From Myxococcales bacterium (GTDB lineage: Bacteria > Myxococcota_A > UBA9042), in assembly GCA_009692425.1 (NCBI GenBank), contig SHZF01000028.1:1-50755 (forward strand): a stretch of 50,755 nt of DNA, given 5' to 3'. Shown here one piece after another: positions 4,145 to 31,061 of this stretch. How positions within the stretch are numbered: position 1 is the first letter of the stretch; every line of letters starts with the position of its first letter. The notes beneath the pieces are model-generated. The model was not told the DNA's origin. It searched no databases and saw only the letters and a list, made by a program, of their open reading frames with translations. A program made the position numbers and the translations under genes.

Positions 4145-4586
4145 GGGCACCCGGTGAAGGGGACGCCATGCCCCACAGAGGTTCGATGCGACCGGTCGCC
4201 CTGCCCGTCGCGGCCGTCTTGTGGCTGGGTGCGTGCCCGTCCAGCGTGCCGGAAGACGCGCGCTTTGCCAGCACGGATGGCGGCGGCGGGGCGGGTACTG
4301 GTCGTTTGGGAGACGCCGGAGGTGGTAGCGGCGTCGACCTGTGCAAACCCGTCACCTGCCAACCAGCCGGCAACTGCAAGGCCCCGATCAGCGCATCGTC
4401 GGCATCGACGCGGCCGAGGCGCCCGGCCACCCGGTAGCGCCCATCGACGACGTGGCCCGGCCGATAGGCGAGGTCGTCTTGCGCGACGATTCGACGCACT
4501 ACGGTGATGGTGCCGTCGTGGGGGCAGAAGCGCTCGGCGCTCGGCTCGCCGCAGTTCGGGCACAGGCGCGCTTCGGCGGTGGACAA
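4131..4586 (-). pseudogene. Truncated zinc-ribbon gene, N-terminal part resembling a myxobacterial Ser/Thr kinase
   Basis: The product starts at a TTG (4586) with AGAGG upstream. Residues 9-24 form a zinc ribbon, CPNCG...FCPHDG, followed by GHVVDGRYRVAGRLG. That order (zinc ribbon, then a GRYRV-x-x-LG segment) is how many myxobacterial protein kinases begin just before their glycine-rich ATP loop. Here the kinase domain never appears: after GRLG the reading is RVDADDALIG and then low-complexity Pro/Ser/Ala sequence that is antisense to the opposing lipoprotein fragment. The frame ends inside the 3' end of the aldehyde dehydrogenase gene. I read it as a gene cut at about 4380-4392. It follows the 4599-5519 lipoprotein gene by 12 bp on the same strand, so it was probably once in that operon. 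A genuine small zinc-ribbon protein is a less likely alternative. Confidence 0.5.
4168..4437 (+). pseudogene. Truncated lipoprotein gene (5' part only)
   Basis: From ATG 4168 (or 4186, preceded by AGAGG) the frame encodes a convincing lipoprotein beginning: a positively charged start, a hydrophobic stretch ALPVAAVLW and a lipobox LGAC. Then follows a Gly/Asp-rich linker and DLCKPVTCQPAGNCK, which resembles the opening of Cys-rich myxobacterial lipoprotein domains. At about 4380-4392 the cysteine pattern stops abruptly and the remaining 15 or so residues (SASSASTRPRRPATR) read like antisense of the opposing gene. The result is 89 residues, far shorter than such proteins. I infer that the gene lost its 3' part at a junction shared with the convergent zinc-ribbon fragment. 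Confidence 0.55.
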
Positions 4587-4598
4587 GGCGGCGCCCTC

Positions 4599-5519
4599 TC
4601 ACGAACCCGTCGCCGACCACGTCCCCTCGGCCTTGAACGGCGGCGTCGTCGGGCTCGGCTGGCCAAGAAACTTCACGTCGGTCGAATCGACCTTCCACGT
4701 GCCGGTGAACGTGCCGTCGGCCCCGAGCGTGCCCTCGATGGGTCCCTCGAACTTGTACTCGAAAAGCTTCCACAACAAGATGTTGCCCTGGTTCAGCGAT
4801 CCCACCAGCTTGAGCGGCGTCGGGTCGTACGTGCCGCTCAACTGTAGCGTGAACTTGTTTCCCGACGCCTCGCCGACCATCTCGCCGCTGACCAGGTACT
4901 TCGAGTTGAAGCACTTGATTTTGAAGGTCATGTCTCCGCTTGTCTTGGCCTTGACCGGCACCAGGCCGCCCGCTGCCACGAAGGTGCAGTCGCCCTTGAA
5001 CTTGCCCGCCCAATTCTCCTTGAGCGCGAGGCCGGCGCATCCGAGGTTCGACTTCGTCACGCACTTGCCGACCTGGCACTGCTGCGTTTCGGTGCAGTCG
5101 CCGCAGCTACCGCCGCAGCCGTCGGGCCCACACAGCTTGATGCCGCACTTCGGCGTGCACGCGCTGGGGCTGACATCCTCTGGTGGTGCCGCCGCGTCGT
5201 CGGTGGTCGTGTCTGCGGGCGAGGCTCCGTCAATGCCGGCGCTATCCTCCAAGACTTCTTCGGGCGCGGCGTCGTCCCCAAGGCTGCCCGCATCGGGGGC
5301 TGCATCGACGGTGGCCGACGACGCCGAGCCCGCGTCCTTGCCTTTGGTGTCCGCGACCTTGCCGAGATCGAGGCCGAACTGCACGGAGGCCCCGCCGTCG
5401 GCATCCGGCGTCGCGGCCGGCGCCTCTTCGGAGCAACCGACCCCACCTGCCAGCACGGCGCCCCACACCGCGCACGCCGCCGCAAGCCCCGGACACTTCC
5501 CCTTGCCCTGGCCCGCCAT
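4599..5519 (-). CDS. Secreted lipoprotein with one CGPDGCGG cysteine module and a beta-rich C-terminal domain
   Basis: 306 residues. An N-terminal hydrophobic segment ends in a lipobox-like GVGC near residue 29, so the protein should be lipid-anchored after export. Residues about 30-115 are an Asp/Ala/Thr-rich linker of the kind seen in other lipoproteins of this window. A compact Cys module follows (TPKCGIKLCGPDGCGGSCGDC). The last 150 residues are Gly/Thr/Phe-rich (GKFKGDCTF, SGTYDPTPLKL, EGTLGADGTFTGTWK), which suggests a beta-barrel or lipocalin-like fold, but I do not recognise the family. Divergent from the fibrinogen-like gene across a 178-bp region holding a perfect 14-bp palindrome. 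Function unknown; a cell-surface role is inference. Confidence 0.8.
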   Translation of the reverse strand: MAGQGKGKCPGLAAACAVWGAVLAGGVGCSEEAPAATPDADGGASVQFGLDLGKVADTKGKDAGSASSATVDAAPDAGSLGDDAAPEEVLEDSAGIDGASPADTTTDDAAAPPEDVSPSACTPKCGIKLCGPDGCGGSCGDCTETQQCQVGKCVTKSNLGCAGLALKENWAGKFKGDCTFVAAGGLVPVKAKTSGDMTFKIKCFNSKYLVSGEMVGEASGNKFTLQLSGTYDPTPLKLVGSLNQGNILLWKLFEYKFEGPIEGTLGADGTFTGTWKVDSTDVKFLGQPSPTTPPFKAEGTWSATGS

Positions 5520-5601
5520 CCGCTTGCGCCTCCCGCCCGTCTGCCGCGCGCTCTCGTGACCCCGGTGCCGCCACCGTAGTCCGCGGCGCCGGTCAATTCA
5601 A

Positions 5602-5615
5602 GCGCCACGTGGCGC
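5602..5615. promoter_or_regulatory. Perfect 14-bp palindrome in a divergent promoter region (candidate operator)
   Basis: GCGCCACGTGGCGC is identical to its reverse complement and centres on CACGTG. It lies between two divergent secreted-protein genes, 87 bp from the minus-strand start and 83 bp from the plus-strand start. It is about 16 bp upstream of a candidate -35 box for the plus gene. A dimeric regulator controlling both genes is possible; nothing else shows it. Confidence 0.35.
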
Positions 5616-5631
5616 GATCGCCATACCGGCC

Positions 5632-5660
5632 TTGACCTGAGGTCCGGCGGCGCCGAAAAT
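5632..5660 (+). promoter_or_regulatory. Candidate sigma70-type promoter for the P-domain/fibrinogen-like gene
   Basis: TTGACC at 5632-5637 and GAAAAT at 5655-5660 are separated by 17 bp, a good spacing. The start codon is 38 bp downstream of the -10 box. Prediction from sequence only. Confidence 0.4.
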
Positions 5661-5697
5661 CACCGGCCTCCCCAACGCGCGCCGCACCGAGGTGCCC

Positions 5698-7731
5698 ATG
5701 TCGCTGTTCCGATTCCTAGCCACACCGCTGGCCGTGTGCGCAATGCTCGCCGCCGTCCCCGCGTCCGCAGCCACCCCGGTCACCGCCGCCATTCAGGGTA
5801 CGCTGGGCGCAACTGCGGGCGGGCCCGTCGCGGACGGCACCTATTCGTTCGAGTTCGCCTTGTACGACAAGGGCTTCGGCGGTACTGCATTGTGGTCGGA
5901 GCCCGCCGCCAAGCTCGAAGTCAAAGGCGGCACGTTCTCGCACCTGCTCGGTGTGACAAAGGCGCTGTCGGCGGCGCAACTCGCCGGCATCGACCAGGCC
6001 TGGCTCGGCGTCAAGGTGGGCGGCGACCCGGAAATGCCGCGCACGCCGCTGCACGCGGTATTGTACGCGCTCGCCGCGGAGCATGCCGCCAACCTGGCTT
6101 GTTCGGGATGCGTCAAGGCCGAGCACCTCCACGCCGACGCGCTCAAGGCCTACGCGAAATCTGCCGAGCTCGCCAAGGTGGCGCTCACCGGCAAATTCGA
6201 GGACCTCGCCGGCGGCCCGGACTTGTCAGCCTACGCCAAGACGACGGCACTGGCCCCGGTGGCGACGAGCGGCAAGTTCGAGGACCTCAAGGGTGGCCCT
6301 GACTTGTCGGCCTACGCCAAGGCGAAGGAGTTGTCGGCCGTGGCAATCACCGGCAAGTATGCCGACCTCACCGAGCCGCCGGCGCTCGCCAAGGTCGGCT
6401 CGGCGTGCGGTACGGGCCTGGTCGTCAAGGGCCTTGCCAAGGACGGCGCACTCGAGTGCGTGGTGGCGCTGGACCCGAACGCCCTGCCCGCCGACGGCCT
6501 GAACGAGATCGCCAACAACGTGCTGACCAACCAGTTCGTCGATTCGTTTGCGGCAGCAGGCGTGCCGATCGACATCCCAGACAACAGCCCGAGCGCGGCG
6601 GAACTGACCATCGATGTGCCCGACATCGGCACCGCGCAGGGCCTCGCAGTCCATGTCGCGCTGGCGAATTCCGACATCGGCAAGATCCTCGTCACGCTCA
6701 AGGACCCCGCCGGCAAGGTGCACACGCTGTGCGGCGGTTGCGGCACCGGGCCGGGGCTCGACACGGTGTTCCCCGACAAGACTGCGGTCGCGGTCGGCGA
6801 CATCGCCGCATGGGCCGGCAAGAATCCCAAGGGCGCGTGGACGCTGAAGGTCGAGGACAAGGCCTTCCTGGACAACAAGAGCGACGGCCAGATCAAGGCG
6901 TTTGAGGTGTTGGTCAAGACGCTGTCGTCCAAGAAGGTCGGCGTGCCGGGCGGGCTGCAGTTTTTCGGCGGCAGCGCTCCGCTGGCGTGCGGGCCCAACG
7001 AGACCGGGCTGATGTACCTCGACGCCAAGGAGCAGAAGCTCAAGTTTTGCACGGGCAAGGGCTACGCGACGATCGCGTCGTGGGGCTTCGGCGAACAGGG
7101 CAATCCGGCCGCGAGTTGCAAGGCGGTCCTGGCCGGCGACCCCAAGGCCAAGACGGGCGCGTACTGGCTCGACGTCGATGGCGACGGAGGCTACCCACCG
7201 TTCCAGAACTGGTGCGACATGGAGTTCGATGGCGGCGGCTGGACGCTCGTGTGGAAGCACAGCTACTTTGAAGTCGGCAACCCGAAGCCGGAGATGTACT
7301 TCTTCACCCAGTCCTTGCAGCCGTGTGCCGACGTGAAGGCGGGCTGGTGCAACGTGCCGAAGAAGACCAAGGCGGGCGGCACGGAGCAGATGACGATGGC
7401 GACCTACAACACGGCGGTCGTCTACGCCTACAAGGGCCCGCTCAACGCGGCGCTCGACCTGTCGTGGCAGGGCGCGATCCTGACGCCGCCGACCAAGGTG
7501 GTCGACCTCTGCCTCGACGGCAACGGCAATGTGCCCGAGCCCGAGAACGACGCCCAGGCGGTGCCTGGCATCACGTTCGACAAGTGGACGCCGGGCAGCT
7601 ACACGAGCAACTGCGACACGGACTGGAACAAGTACACGACGGACTGCCGTTGGGACAATTGTGGCCTGCCGCCTGCAGTCTCCGCCACGAAAAACCATGT
7701 GCAGCACACGCAGTTGATCTGGGTGCGGTAG
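5698..7731 (+). CDS. Secreted multidomain protein: three 27-residue repeats, P-domain, fibrinogen-like C-terminal domain
   Basis: 677 residues from the ATG at 5698, preceded by GAGG at a good distance (a GTG two codons upstream is less well placed). A signal peptide spans residues 1-24, with cleavage after ASA. Three consecutive 27-residue repeats lie at about 151-231, each starting AYAK, with GKFEDL or GKYADL in the middle; such repeats resemble those in tail-fibre-like stalks. About 280-408 matches a proprotein-convertase-type P domain (LTIDVPDIG, ILVTLKDPAGKVHTL, PKGAWTLKVEDKA, GQIKAFEVLV). About 469-677 is a fibrinogen C-terminal-like domain (AYWLDVDGDG, WCDMEFDGGGWTLVWK). No protease catalytic domain is present, so it is more likely an adhesin or binding protein than an enzyme. 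Divergent to a Cys-rich lipoprotein gene. Confidence 0.85.
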   Translation: MSLFRFLATPLAVCAMLAAVPASAATPVTAAIQGTLGATAGGPVADGTYSFEFALYDKGFGGTALWSEPAAKLEVKGGTFSHLLGVTKALSAAQLAGIDQAWLGVKVGGDPEMPRTPLHAVLYALAAEHAANLACSGCVKAEHLHADALKAYAKSAELAKVALTGKFEDLAGGPDLSAYAKTTALAPVATSGKFEDLKGGPDLSAYAKAKELSAVAITGKYADLTEPPALAKVGSACGTGLVVKGLAKDGALECVVALDPNALPADGLNEIANNVLTNQFVDSFAAAGVPIDIPDNSPSAAELTIDVPDIGTAQGLAVHVALANSDIGKILVTLKDPAGKVHTLCGGCGTGPGLDTVFPDKTAVAVGDIAAWAGKNPKGAWTLKVEDKAFLDNKSDGQIKAFEVLVKTLSSKKVGVPGGLQFFGGSAPLACGPNETGLMYLDAKEQKLKFCTGKGYATIASWGFGEQGNPAASCKAVLAGDPKAKTGAYWLDVDGDGGYPPFQNWCDMEFDGGGWTLVWKHSYFEVGNPKPEMYFFTQSLQPCADVKAGWCNVPKKTKAGGTEQMTMATYNTAVVYAYKGPLNAALDLSWQGAILTPPTKVVDLCLDGNGNVPEPENDAQAVPGITFDKWTPGSYTSNCDTDWNKYTTDCRWDNCGLPPAVSATKNHVQHTQLIWVR

Positions 7732-16116: not shown

Positions 16117-16145
16117 ACATTAGGGGTGCGGGGCCGCGAAGTCAA
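16117..16145 (-). promoter_or_regulatory. Strong sigma70-type promoter of rpmB
   Basis: On the minus strand TTGACT (16145-16140) and TAATGT (16122-16117) are separated by exactly 17 bp, close to consensus. The predicted leader to the rpmB ATG is about 45 nt. Twelve bp upstream of the -35 box begins repeat B1. Confidence 0.65.
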
Positions 16146-16157
16146 GGTCGTTTGTCG

Positions 16158-16279
16158 ACCCCGTTCGGCCGCCTTCGGCGCATGGCGTCGGTGCCGTCGT
16201 CGGTTGGCGGTTCGACGTACCCAGTGTACGCGTTGACCGCCAACCTCCTGAACGCAGAGAACTGCATCTGAATTCGGCG
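16158..16279 (-). repeat. Promoter-proximal hairpin repeat, family B, copy B1
   Basis: 122 bp that aligns without gaps to 28601-28722 at roughly 85% identity. It begins CGCCGAATTC and contains a perfect 10-bp inverted repeat, GGTTGGCGGT and ACCGCCAACC, around a 24-nt loop with CGTAC/GTACG inside. The rpmB -35 box follows after 12 bp. No other gene is in this 382-bp intergenic stretch (16067-16448). It is a DNA-level element, because it lies upstream of the predicted transcription start; transcription from the other strand cannot be excluded. Confidence 0.7.
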
Positions 16280-16448
16280 ACCGGGGATGGGAGTCGGTGG
16301 TCGATCCTGGTCGAGTTGGACGCCCGCTGCGGAGGCCGACCCAAAGCGAGCGAGGGCTTGCCTCCCGCCCTGGTTTCCGCTACGACGCCGCGCCAAGCGC
16401 GCGCACTGCCCTTGTCGGGCTTCGCGCCGCGCCCGAACGGAGCTTCCG

Positions 16449-26830: not shown

Positions 26831-27009
26831 CACGAACACGCTCCTGGGCGGAGGATGTCGGCGGCCCGGGCGCGGACCTGCCCGCAGCATCGACTGTCGC
26901 CAGGGCGGGTTCAAGCGGCGCGGACATGGACACGGCAAGCACGGCGGTTGCGCGCGTCGTGGGCAAGTCACATCATGGTGCGCCCGATGCCTGCACGGAG
27001 TATGCCACG

Positions 27010-28530
27010 ATGCCGCCGCGCTCCCTCTCGATCTCCATGTTCGCCGCATTCGGTGCCTGCGCCGCGTGCGCGAGCACCCCACCATCCGCCGCGGGTCCGC
27101 TCGCCGTCGATGCCAGTTCACTCGACACCAGCGCGGCCGACGCGACACCTGCTGGCGGGACGGCGAAAGCAGACACCGTGAGCAAGGACGGTGGGGTACC
27201 CGAAGCGGGCGCCTTGGCCGACACCGCCGCAGACACGGGAGTTGCCGACGGTGCCGCGCCGCCAGACGTCGCGAAGCCGACTACGGACATCGCCCTGACG
27301 GATGCCCAGATAGGCAGTGCCGCTGCGGAATTCGCGGCCTGGCACGCCAAGTACATCGACGCCTGGTGCAAGGCCAAGCTCGCGTGCGATCCCTACGGCG
27401 CCATCGCGGATCTGGCGCGCTGCAAGACACTCGTTGCTTCGCAGCAGTGGTCCGATTTCGGTGCGGAGTTGGCCGCAGTTGCAGCAGGCATGGCGACGTA
27501 CAACGCAACCTCGGCTGCCGCCTGTCTTCAGACGCTGGACGGCTCGTGCGCCTACTTCGAGTCGCTCAACTTCAGCTACGGTCTCAAGATGCCGGCGCCG
27601 TGCCATTCTGTTGCGCAGGGCATCTTCGACGACGGCGCCGCGTGCATGAGCGCCGCCGCGTGCAAGTCGGGATTCTGTGTCGCTCTGGACGGCGTGGGGC
27701 CGAAATGTCCCGGGGAGTGCGAGTCCCTGGCGTCCAAGGGTGACGAGTGCGAATTCGACGACGATTGCGAGGGAGCCCTGTGGTGCCGCAACGGCGAGTG
27801 CTCCGACGGCACGGCGGCCAAATTCGGCGAGGATTGTGCGGGTTGGTTCTGCGACAAGTCGCTGACGTGCAAGCCCAAGGGCACCGACGAGCTGGCCTGT
27901 GGCCCGCCGCTCGATGTGAGTGCGACGTGCGCGCCCAGCTTCAACAATTGCAAGCCTGACACGTGGTGCAAGCAGGCGAAAGCCGGTGCGGCGACGGGCA
28001 AGTGCACGGCAGCCATGGCGACCGGCGCGCCTTGCACGCCGCAACCCAAAGACGAGAAGGACCCGGCGTTCGACACGTGGGAGGGCCAGTGCGGCGCCAA
28101 GCAGGCGTGCCTCGCGCTCGCGGCGGATGCATCGCCGGTCTGTGCGAACCTCGTCGATCTGGGCGCATCATGTGCATCGACGCTGCAATGCAACGGATTG
28201 GATGCGTGGTGCAGCGGCGTGACCGGCAAGTGCGCGGTACTGCCTGACAAAGCGGCGGAGTGTGCCAAGGTTCCCGATGGCTTCGACCAATGCCGTTTCC
28301 CCTACGTCTGCGACAGTGCCGCGAGCAAGTGCGCGGAGCTTCCCGCAGTCGGTCAGGCGTGCATCGGGGGGTGGTGCGCGGGCACCGCCTGGTGCAACGA
28401 CAAGGAGAAATGCGCGGCAGAAGGCAAGAAGGGCGACGTGTGCGAAGACTATGGCGATGAAGGCGACACCTGCGTCCCGGCGCTCCAGTGCGGCAAGGCA
28501 GGCAAGTGCGAGGCGCTGGCGTGCCCTTGA
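27010..28530 (+). CDS. Cys-rich lipoprotein
   Basis: 506 residues from the ATG at 27010. The N-terminus SISMFAAFGACAACAS offers two possible lipobox cysteines. Residues about 20-105 are an Asp/Ala/Gly/Thr-rich linker. About 110-190 is a helical segment with three cysteine pairs (KYIDAWCKAKLACDPYG, AACLQTLDGSCAYFESL). From about 190 to the end there are repeated short loops of the type G-x-x-C-x(4-8)-C-x(3-6)-C (SVAQGIFDDGAACMS, KGDECEFDDDCEGALWC, LGASCASTLQCNG, VGQACIGGWCAG). This is a common architecture in Myxococcota secreted lipoproteins with no assigned function. The cysteines are probably in disulphides outside the cytosol. Confidence 0.82.
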   Translation: MPPRSLSISMFAAFGACAACASTPPSAAGPLAVDASSLDTSAADATPAGGTAKADTVSKDGGVPEAGALADTAADTGVADGAAPPDVAKPTTDIALTDAQIGSAAAEFAAWHAKYIDAWCKAKLACDPYGAIADLARCKTLVASQQWSDFGAELAAVAAGMATYNATSAAACLQTLDGSCAYFESLNFSYGLKMPAPCHSVAQGIFDDGAACMSAAACKSGFCVALDGVGPKCPGECESLASKGDECEFDDDCEGALWCRNGECSDGTAAKFGEDCAGWFCDKSLTCKPKGTDELACGPPLDVSATCAPSFNNCKPDTWCKQAKAGAATGKCTAAMATGAPCTPQPKDEKDPAFDTWEGQCGAKQACLALAADASPVCANLVDLGASCASTLQCNGLDAWCSGVTGKCAVLPDKAAECAKVPDGFDQCRFPYVCDSAASKCAELPAVGQACIGGWCAGTAWCNDKEKCAAEGKKGDVCEDYGDEGDTCVPALQCGKAGKCEALACP

Positions 28531-28600
28531 GGACGCTCGATCCTCGTGCCGACTCCGCTCAGCCGACGGTCCCAGGGTCCATCACCCAACCTTTCCCGAA

Positions 28601-28722
28601 CGCCGAATTCGGATGCAGTTCTAGGCGCCTAGGAGGTTGGCGGTGAAGGCGTACACCGGGCACGTCGAACCGCCAACCGACGACGGCAACGACGAAATGC
28701 GCTGAAGGCGGCGGATCGGGGG
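28601..28722 (+). repeat. Promoter-proximal hairpin repeat, family B, copy B2
   Basis: 122 bp, ungapped match to B1 (16158-16279, minus), about 85% identical. Conserved blocks include CGCCGAATTC, GATGCAGTTCT, AGGAGGTTGGCGGT, GCGTACAC, ACGTCGAACCGCCAACCG and ACGACGGCA. The same 10-bp perfect inverted repeat is kept. The -35 box of the next gene falls 12 bp further on, at the same distance as in B1. It fills most of the 284-bp gap between two lipoprotein genes; I see nothing else there except the promoter. Confidence 0.7.
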
Positions 28723-28734
28723 GTCTGCTGCGGC

Positions 28735-28764
28735 TTGCCGCACTGTGCAGGGCAACGGTAGAGT
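28735..28764 (+). promoter_or_regulatory. Candidate promoter of the large Cys-rich SMB lipoprotein
   Basis: TTGCCG (28735-28740) and TAGAGT (28759-28764) are 18 bp apart; the ATG is 50 bp downstream of the -10 box. The -35 box aligns base for base with that of rpmB when the B repeats are aligned, which supports it. Confidence 0.45.
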
Positions 28765-28814: not shown

Positions 28815-31061
28815 ATGCAGTCGAATCGTATCGTTGCGCTGACGGAGCGCACGCAGTTCACGGGGTTCCCCGCGCCAACGTTGCCGGGATGGTGGACTGC
28901 GGCGCGGGTGGCGACGCTCTTCATGGTTGCAGGGAATGCGCTGGCGGCATGCGGGGCGGAGAATCCCGGCGTGACCGGGGCCGGCATCCAGAACCCGAAG
29001 GATACGACGTCGGCGCCGGCCGGAAATCCCTGCGATAGCGTGCGTGACCTACAGAAGTGCATGAAGCCTCGAGGCTTTGACGAGCGCTGGCAGTGCGACA
29101 AGGGCGTGTGGGTCAAGTTGGAGGTGTGCGACCCCGGCCTCGTGTGCGTCGAGACGCCAACGCCGGAAAAGAAGATACAGGCGTCCTGTGCCCTACCTAC
29201 CGCCCCCGACGCGGGCAGTGCGGAGGTCGCCGTCGTGGACGCCGCAGGCGACATCATCGGTGCGCCCGATGCGGGCGGCGCGGACAGTACAGTCGATGTG
29301 GCGAGCGGGGACGTGCCGACGCCAGACGCGCCCAAGAACGCCTGTGGTGACGGCAAGTGCAACGCCCCGGAGAATATCGCCACGTGCCCGATCGACTGCC
29401 AGGCGCCCGCGAGTTGTGGGAACGCGCTGTGCGAGCCCGGCGAAGACGAGTCGAATTGTCCCGAAGACTGCGCCTATGCCTCCGAGTTCATGCTGTGCCT
29501 GCAGGCGAAGTGCAAGTCACCGTACCAGAAGTGCAACCTGTCGGATTCGTGCGGTCCCTTCATGGAGTGCGCGATCGACTGCGGCGGCACGGTCAAGTGC
29601 ATCGACTTGTGTCTCGTGGGCCTGGCCGACAGCGCGCTGGGCCTGGCCAAAGGCGTCGTCGGCTGCGCGTACGACAACCAGTGCTATCCCACGAAGTGCG
29701 GCGACGGTGCGTGCCAGGGGCCGTCGGAAAACGGCGTCAACTGCAGCAAGGACTGCAAGGTCGGCGGCCCCGTGTGCGGCGACCACATTTGCGTCGCGTC
29801 CGAATCGCACAGCAGTTGCCCCGGCGACTGCAAGGATGGCGGCGCGTCGTGCGGCAACGGGCAGTGCGAGCCCGGCGAGACGCCAGCGAACTGCAACCAG
29901 GACTGCAAGACGCCGCTGACCAGCGGCTGCAAAGGATTGTGCGGCAAGCAAAGCCAGGAAAACGGCAAGCAGTGCTTCTGCGACGATCTGTGCACCGAAC
30001 AGGTGCCGCCAGATTGCTGCAGCGACAAGGCGACTCTGTGCCCGTCGACATGCACGAAGAAGTGCTCCGGCAAGGTCTGTGGCCCCGACGGCTGCGGTGG
30101 CGAATGCGCCCCCTGCGGGGACGGCGCGAAGTGCAAGACCGACGGCACCGCGTGCGAGACCGTATCGACCTGTGGCAACAAGGTGTGCGATGCCGGCGAA
30201 GACACCGCGACGTGCCCTGGGGACTGCCCGTGCGTCAAGACGTGCGACGGCAAAGTCTGCGGCTCGGACGGCTGCGGCGGGCTGTGCGCCAAGTGCGCAA
30301 CGGGAGCAAACTGCAACACGGGCGGCACGCAGTGTGTGCCCAAGACGTGCGGCAACAAGATCTGCGACACGGGCGAGACGGCGACGAACTGCGCAGGGGA
30401 CTGCAAGGCGACGTGCACACCGGCGTGCGCGGGCAAGAAGTGTGGCCCAGATGGCTGTGGAGGCTCGTGTGGCCCGTGCCAGAGCGGACAGACCTGCAAG
30501 ACGGATGGAACGGCATGCACGTGCACGAAACAGTGTACAGGCAAGGTGTGCGGGTCTGACGGGTGCGGCGGCACATGCGGACCGTGTGCAGCGCCTTCGA
30601 CCTGTAGCGCGGACGGCAAAACGTGTGCTGGGGCGTGCACGAAGCAGTGCGCGGGCAAGGTGTGCGGCCCCGATGGCTGCGGCGGCACGTGCGGGCCGTG
30701 CGTGACGCCGTCAACGTGCAGCGCAGACGGCAAGACGTGCGCTGCGACGTGTACGAAACAATGTTCCGGCAAGGTGTGCGGCCCCGACGGTTGCGGCGGC
30801 ACCTGTGGGGCGGTGTGCTCGATCGGCAAGGACTGCAAGACCGATGGGACGGTGTGTATTTCGGCGTCGTGCGGCAACGGCGTGTGCGCGTCGAACGAGA
30901 CGGCGACGAGTTGCGCGAAGGACTGCGCCCCGGCCGCGGTGGGGTGTCAGAACAACTGCAGCAAGCCCAGCAAGACAGCGACGGGCGTCCCGTGCTTCTG
31001 CGACGACTTCTGTCAGTCGAGCGGCGACTGCTGCGCAGACAAGGCGAAATGGTGCCCGTGA
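28815..31061 (+). CDS. Large Cys-rich lipoprotein with CGPDGCGG tandem modules and two somatomedin-B-like domains
   Basis: 748 residues. A 30-residue N-region precedes the hydrophobic stretch ATLFMVAGNALAAC with lipobox LAAC at about 46. After an Asp/Gly linker (about 125-175), two repeat types alternate. Eight copies follow the pattern CG-x(2)-x-C-x(3)-E-x(4-6)-C-x-x-DC (for example CGNALCEPGEDESNCPEDC). Six copies carry CG[PS]DGCGG (for example KVCGPDGCGGTCGPC). Two segments match the eight-cysteine somatomedin-B pattern: one in the middle (CKGLCG...CFCDDLC...DCCSD) and one at the extreme C-terminus (CQNNCS...CFCDDFC...DCCADKAKWC). In animals SMB domains bind proteins; here an adhesive or binding surface role is inference. 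Many disulphides are expected. Confidence 0.85.
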   Translation: MQSNRIVALTERTQFTGFPAPTLPGWWTAARVATLFMVAGNALAACGAENPGVTGAGIQNPKDTTSAPAGNPCDSVRDLQKCMKPRGFDERWQCDKGVWVKLEVCDPGLVCVETPTPEKKIQASCALPTAPDAGSAEVAVVDAAGDIIGAPDAGGADSTVDVASGDVPTPDAPKNACGDGKCNAPENIATCPIDCQAPASCGNALCEPGEDESNCPEDCAYASEFMLCLQAKCKSPYQKCNLSDSCGPFMECAIDCGGTVKCIDLCLVGLADSALGLAKGVVGCAYDNQCYPTKCGDGACQGPSENGVNCSKDCKVGGPVCGDHICVASESHSSCPGDCKDGGASCGNGQCEPGETPANCNQDCKTPLTSGCKGLCGKQSQENGKQCFCDDLCTEQVPPDCCSDKATLCPSTCTKKCSGKVCGPDGCGGECAPCGDGAKCKTDGTACETVSTCGNKVCDAGEDTATCPGDCPCVKTCDGKVCGSDGCGGLCAKCATGANCNTGGTQCVPKTCGNKICDTGETATNCAGDCKATCTPACAGKKCGPDGCGGSCGPCQSGQTCKTDGTACTCTKQCTGKVCGSDGCGGTCGPCAAPSTCSADGKTCAGACTKQCAGKVCGPDGCGGTCGPCVTPSTCSADGKTCAATCTKQCSGKVCGPDGCGGTCGAVCSIGKDCKTDGTVCISASCGNGVCASNETATSCAKDCAPAAVGCQNNCSKPSKTATGVPCFCDDFCQSSGDCCADKAKWCP

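Follow-up and report, generated by a model that had tools for sequence, protein, structure and literature searches.

Copies of a putative IS1380-type miniature transposon lie at a fixed distance upstream of predicted sigma-70 promoters in a Myxococcales genome and its relatives

Introduction

A hairpin repeat occurs twice in a 50 755-nucleotide stretch of DNA from a Myxococcales bacterium (assembly GCA_009692425.1, contig SHZF01000028.1; the whole stretch is referred to hereafter as the window), each time at the same distance upstream of a promoter, the two downstream genes being unrelated. What is this repeat, and how did it come to stand beside two promoters with the same spacing? A first-pass annotation had read it as a control element acting at the level of DNA or as a mobile promoter cassette. 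Here we address both questions from the copies found in the genome of the window and in related genomes.

Results

The two copies in the window, designated B1 and B2, are both real and align without gaps over the block first described, at 84–86% identity. The 10-bp inverted repeat GGTTGGCGGT/ACCGCCAACC was present as the first-pass annotation had it, as were the -35 boxes TTGACT and TTGCCG with their spacers of 17 and 18 bp. The unit itself had been given as 122 bp and extends in fact over about 150 bp (Table 1), so that the distance from its true end to the -35 box is 13 bp in place of the 12 bp first reported. A perfect 4-bp direct repeat bounds each copy (TCGA at B1, GGTC at B2), and the first 4 of the 13 bp between element end and -35 box consist of this target duplication. 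A search of the window with a covariance model identified no third copy. Two long tandem ORFs (window positions 26926–28530 and 28815–31061) enclose B2, the upstream one being Cys-rich at its end.

Table 1. Positions of the two repeat copies in the window and of the features that surround them
Feature	Position	Strand	Basis
Putative MITE copy B2, full length, CCAGGGTCC...GGATCGGGG	28572..28721	+	Covariance-model match of 189.1 bits at 28571-28721; exact ends from target duplication
Target site duplication GGTC, 4 bp, distal side of B2	28568..28571		Same as 28722-28725
Target site duplication GGTC, 4 bp, promoter side of B2	28722..28725		Same as 28568-28571
-35 box TTGCCG, putative host promoter, starting 13 bp past the B2 end	28735..28740	+	Sequence; position equals family-wide peak
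-10 box TAGAGT, 18-bp spacer, B2 side	28759..28764	+	Sequence; family-wide peak at offsets 36-37
ORF downstream of B2, 748 aa, putative Cys-rich lipoprotein of the first-pass annotation	28815..31061	+	ORF list
Putative MITE copy B1, full length	16159..16310	-	Covariance-model match of 160.6 bits at 16159-16311
Target site duplication TCGA, 4 bp, distal side of B1	16311..16314		Sequence
Target site duplication TCGA, 4 bp, promoter side of B1	16155..16158		Sequence
-35 box TTGACT, rpmB promoter, 13 bp past the B1 end	16140..16145	-	Sequence; equivalent TTGAC promoter in element-free relatives
-10 box TAATGT, rpmB promoter, 17-bp spacer	16117..16122	-	Sequence; comparison with relatives
rpmB, ribosomal protein L28, 85 aa	15809..16066	-	Translation; matches in 25 of the 27 genomes searched, its own included

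The window copies belong to a family whose unit of about 150 bp is near-symmetric, with ends CCAGGATCCACC on the left and GGCGGATCGGGG on the right (reverse complement CCCCGATCCGCC). In the window's own genome (G000), 41 matches were obtained by BLAST and 97 (E ≤ 0.01) with a covariance model made from 38 copies, about 80 of the latter being strong; we estimate that this MAG holds about 90 copies. With the same model, other genera of the bacterial family yielded 102 copies among the matches listed for G017, 33 in G009 and 13 in G006, and a pattern search found at least 126 left ends in G017. Copies are scattered singly over the contigs in both orientations and fall into subfamilies between which the central 8-bp hairpin covaries, with double (compensating) changes in 6 of 11 consensus pairs. 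A length variant of 178 bp recurs (G000:C67:33263-33440, C15:52799-52976, C77:15482-15659 and others), one of 205 bp was seen, and lengths in G017 range from about 138 to more than 200 bp, apparently through changes in the central hairpin region. At G000:C45:133790-134092 and G000:C13:101399-101828 elements are split mid-way by about 150–180 bp; the first stretch past the break is alike at both loci, which may indicate a longer subfamily with an internal insertion. One copy in G009 (L161, C54:82473-85622) lies between direct repeats of about 30 bp (gactgaagggtccagggtgcttccgtgcct), far beyond the usual 4 bp.

Exact 4-bp duplications flank 29 of 78 copies in the genome of the window, 28 of 59 in the related-genome set and 55 of 72 in G017, compared with a mean of about 1 in shuffled flanks, and matching flanks of 2, 3, 5 or 6 bp show little or no excess. 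The copies in G017 are young, 76% of the duplications being intact. The duplicated bases themselves show almost no preference, and the flanks of different copies are otherwise unrelated, even between near-identical copies. The repeat is thus short, free of a transposase gene, dispersed in many copies and bounded by a target duplication of fixed length (4 bp). Judged by these features of the sequence, it is most probably a MITE, that is, a small transposon, here one that is related to an IS1380-type insertion sequence but shortened. A reading as attC sites of an integron was discarded on the strength of the single, dispersed copies, their occurrence in both orientations and the transposon-type duplications. 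No Rfam family was matched by the element, and a plasmid collection gave no DNA or protein match.

The ends of the repeat match those of IS1380-family elements of about 1.85 kb, both carrying termini of the type CC(N3)ATYCACC as a shared terminal repeat. In genome G014 an IS of 1859 bp (C245, 4522-6380) has a 3′ end matching the MITE, and GGTGAATCCTGG is common to this 3′ end and to the left end of the G014 MITE. Its transposase scored 197.6 bits against the IS1380 equivalog NF033539 (cut-off 180) and 96.7 bits against PF13701 (cut-off 34.7). Residues D200, D275 and E417 are invariant in an alignment of 11 transposase relatives, and we assign Asp200, Asp275 and Glu417 as the putative catalytic triad. 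No relative of the transposase was identified in the PDB by sequence; the predicted structure (mean pLDDT 73.7) was nearest to Tn5 transposase. Transposase fragments occur in G017, and two of these lie where contigs end, as a multicopy element would lead one to expect. An intact transposase was found neither in the genome of the window nor in G009, and no relative of it in these two genomes or in G006; for want of an intact transposase, the copies of the window genome and of G009 may be immobile, and those of the window are probably relics.

The same G014 contig indicated how insertions can accumulate at one site. Over 4361-6385 (locus L181) the order is AATCA, a MITE (4366-4516), AATCA, the IS (4522-6380), AATCA, 9 bp and TTGCCG, which suggests that one 5-bp target was re-used and that the newest insertion lies nearest the promoter. 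The composite had been taken for a single element of 2.0 kb, a reading replaced by that of two stacked insertions once the third AATCA was seen. In two stacked pairs of G017 (L143, L258) the end of the older element lies 4 bp behind the copy, and the promoter is on the other side.

The spacing seen at B1 and B2 holds for the family. Of 187 MITE copies, a pool into which the larger G017 set was taken, 121 (65%) show a sigma-70 signal at a single fixed position, compared with 9.1% at shifted positions, the promoters being consensus predictions on MAG contigs scored against consensus boxes. The -35 box starts 13 (13–14) bp outside one element end and the -10 box at 36–37. Among 137 copies (78 from the genome of the window and 59 from relatives), TTGAC with at least 4 of 5 matches begins at offset 13 from the right end in 40 and, reading outwards, from the left end in 19, against a background of 1.4%; TAnnnT at offset 36 was found in 17 of 136 (0.27 expected). 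The peak is one bp wide, and there is no second peak a helical turn away. On flanks opposite a flank bearing a -35 box there was no -10 box whatsoever. Where neither flank had a recognisable -35 box, a -10 box was still found at offset 36 (7 of 61 on the right) and, over offsets 34–38, in 12 of 61 as against 0.45 expected. Since the -10 box is present even without a -35 box and missing from the opposite flank, there is one promoter per copy, and the target behaves as a promoter and not as a TTGAC string. Gene starts agree, with an outward start 40–320 bp away on 68 of 85 promoter-side flanks and on 30 of 86 flanks of the other side. In G017, 26 of 35 higher-scoring (youngest) copies and 18 of 37 lower-scoring ones stand at this placement. 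The remaining third of the pooled set (66 of 187) has no recognisable promoter at the position, which may be due to decay, to boxes that are weak, to the use of other sigma factors or to insertion without targeting. From the sequence data at hand, we interpret the placement as promoter-targeted transposition.

To whom the promoters belong can be judged at rpmB. In close relatives free of the element, rpmB is preceded by a TTGAC promoter whose -10 box is TAAGAT-like, and in the genome of the window that same promoter stands 13 bp from B1. Wherever the 4-bp duplication is intact, it separates the element from the promoter. Because the flanks are unrelated and the rpmB promoter is kept in element-free relatives, the promoters are in all probability those of the host and not part of the element. 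Empty sites for three G017 insertions were sought with the joined flanks (1187 nt) in sister species, and nothing alignable was found.

A genome scan with the transposase revealed relatives at 40–50% identity in Acidobacteria, SAR324, Desulfobacterota, Trueperaceae and other lineages. In 13 full-length copies of IS1380 relatives (Acidobacteria, SAR324, Desulfobacterota, Trueperaceae and Myxococcota-type), the terminal repeat allowed the 3′ end to be placed, and a sigma-70 promoter signal lies at the same position for 12 of these 13 3′ ends, as compared with 0–2 of the same 13 at shifted positions; for one element (L207a, G040) there were two candidate 3′ ends, of which the fitting one was scored, the other giving 11 of 13. 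Examples are TTGACA-17-TATAGT (L316), TTGACT-17-TAAAAT (SAR324) and TTGAAA-17-TAACAT (Acidobacteria gp1); in L318, the one that departs from this, TTGAC stands at 17 and follows a repeated TACG. No promoter signal was found in the 5′-end flanks of these relatives, and several full-length IS copies with both ends located had no matching target duplication, perhaps through a mis-set 5′ end or the use of alternative ends. In L213, L214, L221 and L318 the 3′ flank fits the target rule (loosely in L318) and the 5′ flank is without a matching duplication. Two canonical IS1380 elements from the same bacterial family as the window genome, L182 (G015:C854) and L183 (G016:C36), share instead an apparent duplication CTAG, so that promoter targeting seems to belong to a subgroup of IS1380.

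Discussion

Taken together, the repeat is very probably a MITE of an IS1380 subgroup whose Tn5-like DDE transposase inserts at a fixed distance upstream of host sigma-70 promoters, presumably under the guidance of RNA polymerase. As we picture it, the repeat would be a non-autonomous derivative within that subgroup, mobilised by a transposase that would cut the target with a stagger of 4 bp, occasionally 5 bp. The middle of the cut would lie some 11 bp upstream of the -35 hexamer, at about -46 to -49 relative to the transcription start, and the element would thereby come to abut an intact core promoter of the host. In standard sigma-70 geometry, the cut thus falls where the C-terminal domains of the alpha subunits contact DNA. 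In our preferred mechanism, which is inferred, RNA polymerase bound at the promoter (its alpha-CTD or sigma region 4, for instance), and not a DNA motif, would direct the transposition complex to the site. The element would gain a site that is usually free and where no gene is broken.

The main rival is that the transposase itself reads promoter DNA, be it the -35/-10 sequence or its propensity to bend or melt, without RNA polymerase. TTGAC is indeed the strongest flank signal, some transposases have sequence-specific targets, and the two other IS1380 elements here show the CTAG duplication; however, the -10 box is rightly placed even without a -35 match, the spacer may be 17 or 18 bp and the duplicated bases are almost without preference, and recognising two parts at a variable spacing is characteristic of RNA polymerase. 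We regard direct reading as possible, although unlikely. A control element, as one of the two earlier readings had it, would imply random insertion followed by selection for a spacing that activates or insulates the promoter. Adjacency to promoters could have regulatory effects, and copies have been retained next to essential genes, rpmB among them, but the peak is sharp to one bp with none at the next helical turn, the youngest copies are at least equally well placed, elements are found in either orientation, the placement is shared by diverged full-length relatives from other lineages, and when a target is re-used with an identical duplication, this reflects insertion. The insertion site explains the fixed distance, and the selective account appears improbable.

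For the other earlier reading, a cassette with the promoter inside the mobile unit, the constant spacing between repeat and -35 box in B1 and B2 had been the attraction. It did not survive the comparison of copies, in which the duplication separates element from promoter, neither the 13-bp spacers nor the promoter spacers are related even in copies that are nearly identical, the distance to the -35 box varies by one base, and element-free relatives have the rpmB promoter too; we consider it highly improbable. Equally hard to credit is a structured RNA or riboswitch, an attC site or a REP-type palindrome: the covarying central hairpin would suit such a structure, yet the element lies upstream of the promoter and without an Rfam match, in agreement with the earlier exclusion of a riboswitch, and its copies are dispersed in both orientations and not in arrays, with transposon-type ends and duplications. 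What the first-pass annotation had said of a mobile, non-coding element acting at the level of DNA in a fixed relation to promoters was upheld, and the further copies and constant promoter relation by which it had proposed to be judged were both found.

Guidance by sigma-70 RNA polymerase may extend further. It is somewhat better than an even chance, in our estimate, that an IS1380 subgroup across several phyla is so guided, that this arose independently of the Mutator-like TnGBS, ISLre2 and ISKra4 elements and converged with them on a site about 11–12 bp upstream of the -35 box, and that the MITEs mark promoters. As far as we could find, only Mutator-like transposases had been known to direct transposition to promoters in bacteria; another transposase family, unrelated to them, at nearly the same spot would offer a new system for finding the common target feature. 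An insertion exchanges the whole region upstream of about -49 while the core promoter stays in place, and could cut genes off from upstream activator sites. In uncultured bacteria, where genomes come without transcriptomes, the copies would map likely promoters.

TnGBS, ISLre2 and some ISKra4 elements insert 15–17 bp upstream of the -35 box of sigma-A promoters with repeats of 8–9 bp, and contact with the RNA polymerase initiation complex has been proposed (Guerillot et al., 2014; PMC3942029). Like these, the elements described here are DDE elements whose insertions keep a short, fixed distance from the -35 box on its upstream side. In many cases one end is turned towards the promoter, and in ISKra4-type elements it may be either end. 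Unlike in that group, the transposase partnering the MITE is of IS1380 type, PF13701 and NF033539 being its only matches in Pfam and NCBIfam with no Mutator model among them, the duplication is 4 and not 8–9 bp, the distance is 13–14 and not 15–17 bp, and the elements were found here in Gram-negative lineages and Trueperaceae and include a highly successful MITE. The cut is nevertheless centred about 12 bp from the -35 box in the TnGBS group (16 minus half of 8–9) and about 11 bp for the MITE (13 minus 2), near-equal values that would suggest one common feature of the promoter complex as the target.

Within the IS1380 family (ISEcp1, ISPme1, canonical IS1380), the present elements share the equivalog match above cut-off and ends that begin with CC, and with the two canonical IS1380 copies of the same bacterial family also the 4-bp length of the duplication. 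The CTAG common to those two copies fits a preference of sequence type, unlike the promoter-targeting subgroup. For ISEcp1 and ISPme1, outward promoters and gene capture have been reported, and not targeting upstream of promoters (PMC9330008). The literature search, which covered open-access papers, gave no prior report of promoter targeting by IS1380.

Promoter-adjacent insertion through contact with the transcription machinery is also a feature of the Ty3 and Ty1 retrotransposons at yeast Pol III genes (Mob DNA 2018, PMC5911963). These are unrelated elements and the polymerase is eukaryotic, so that the likeness is one of analogy only. Among bacterial MITEs such as the Correia elements, the repeat is typical in being short, intergenic, high in copy number and non-autonomous. 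Correia elements carry promoter parts within their ends and have TA as target; here, in contrast, the promoter would be that of the host and lie outside the element.
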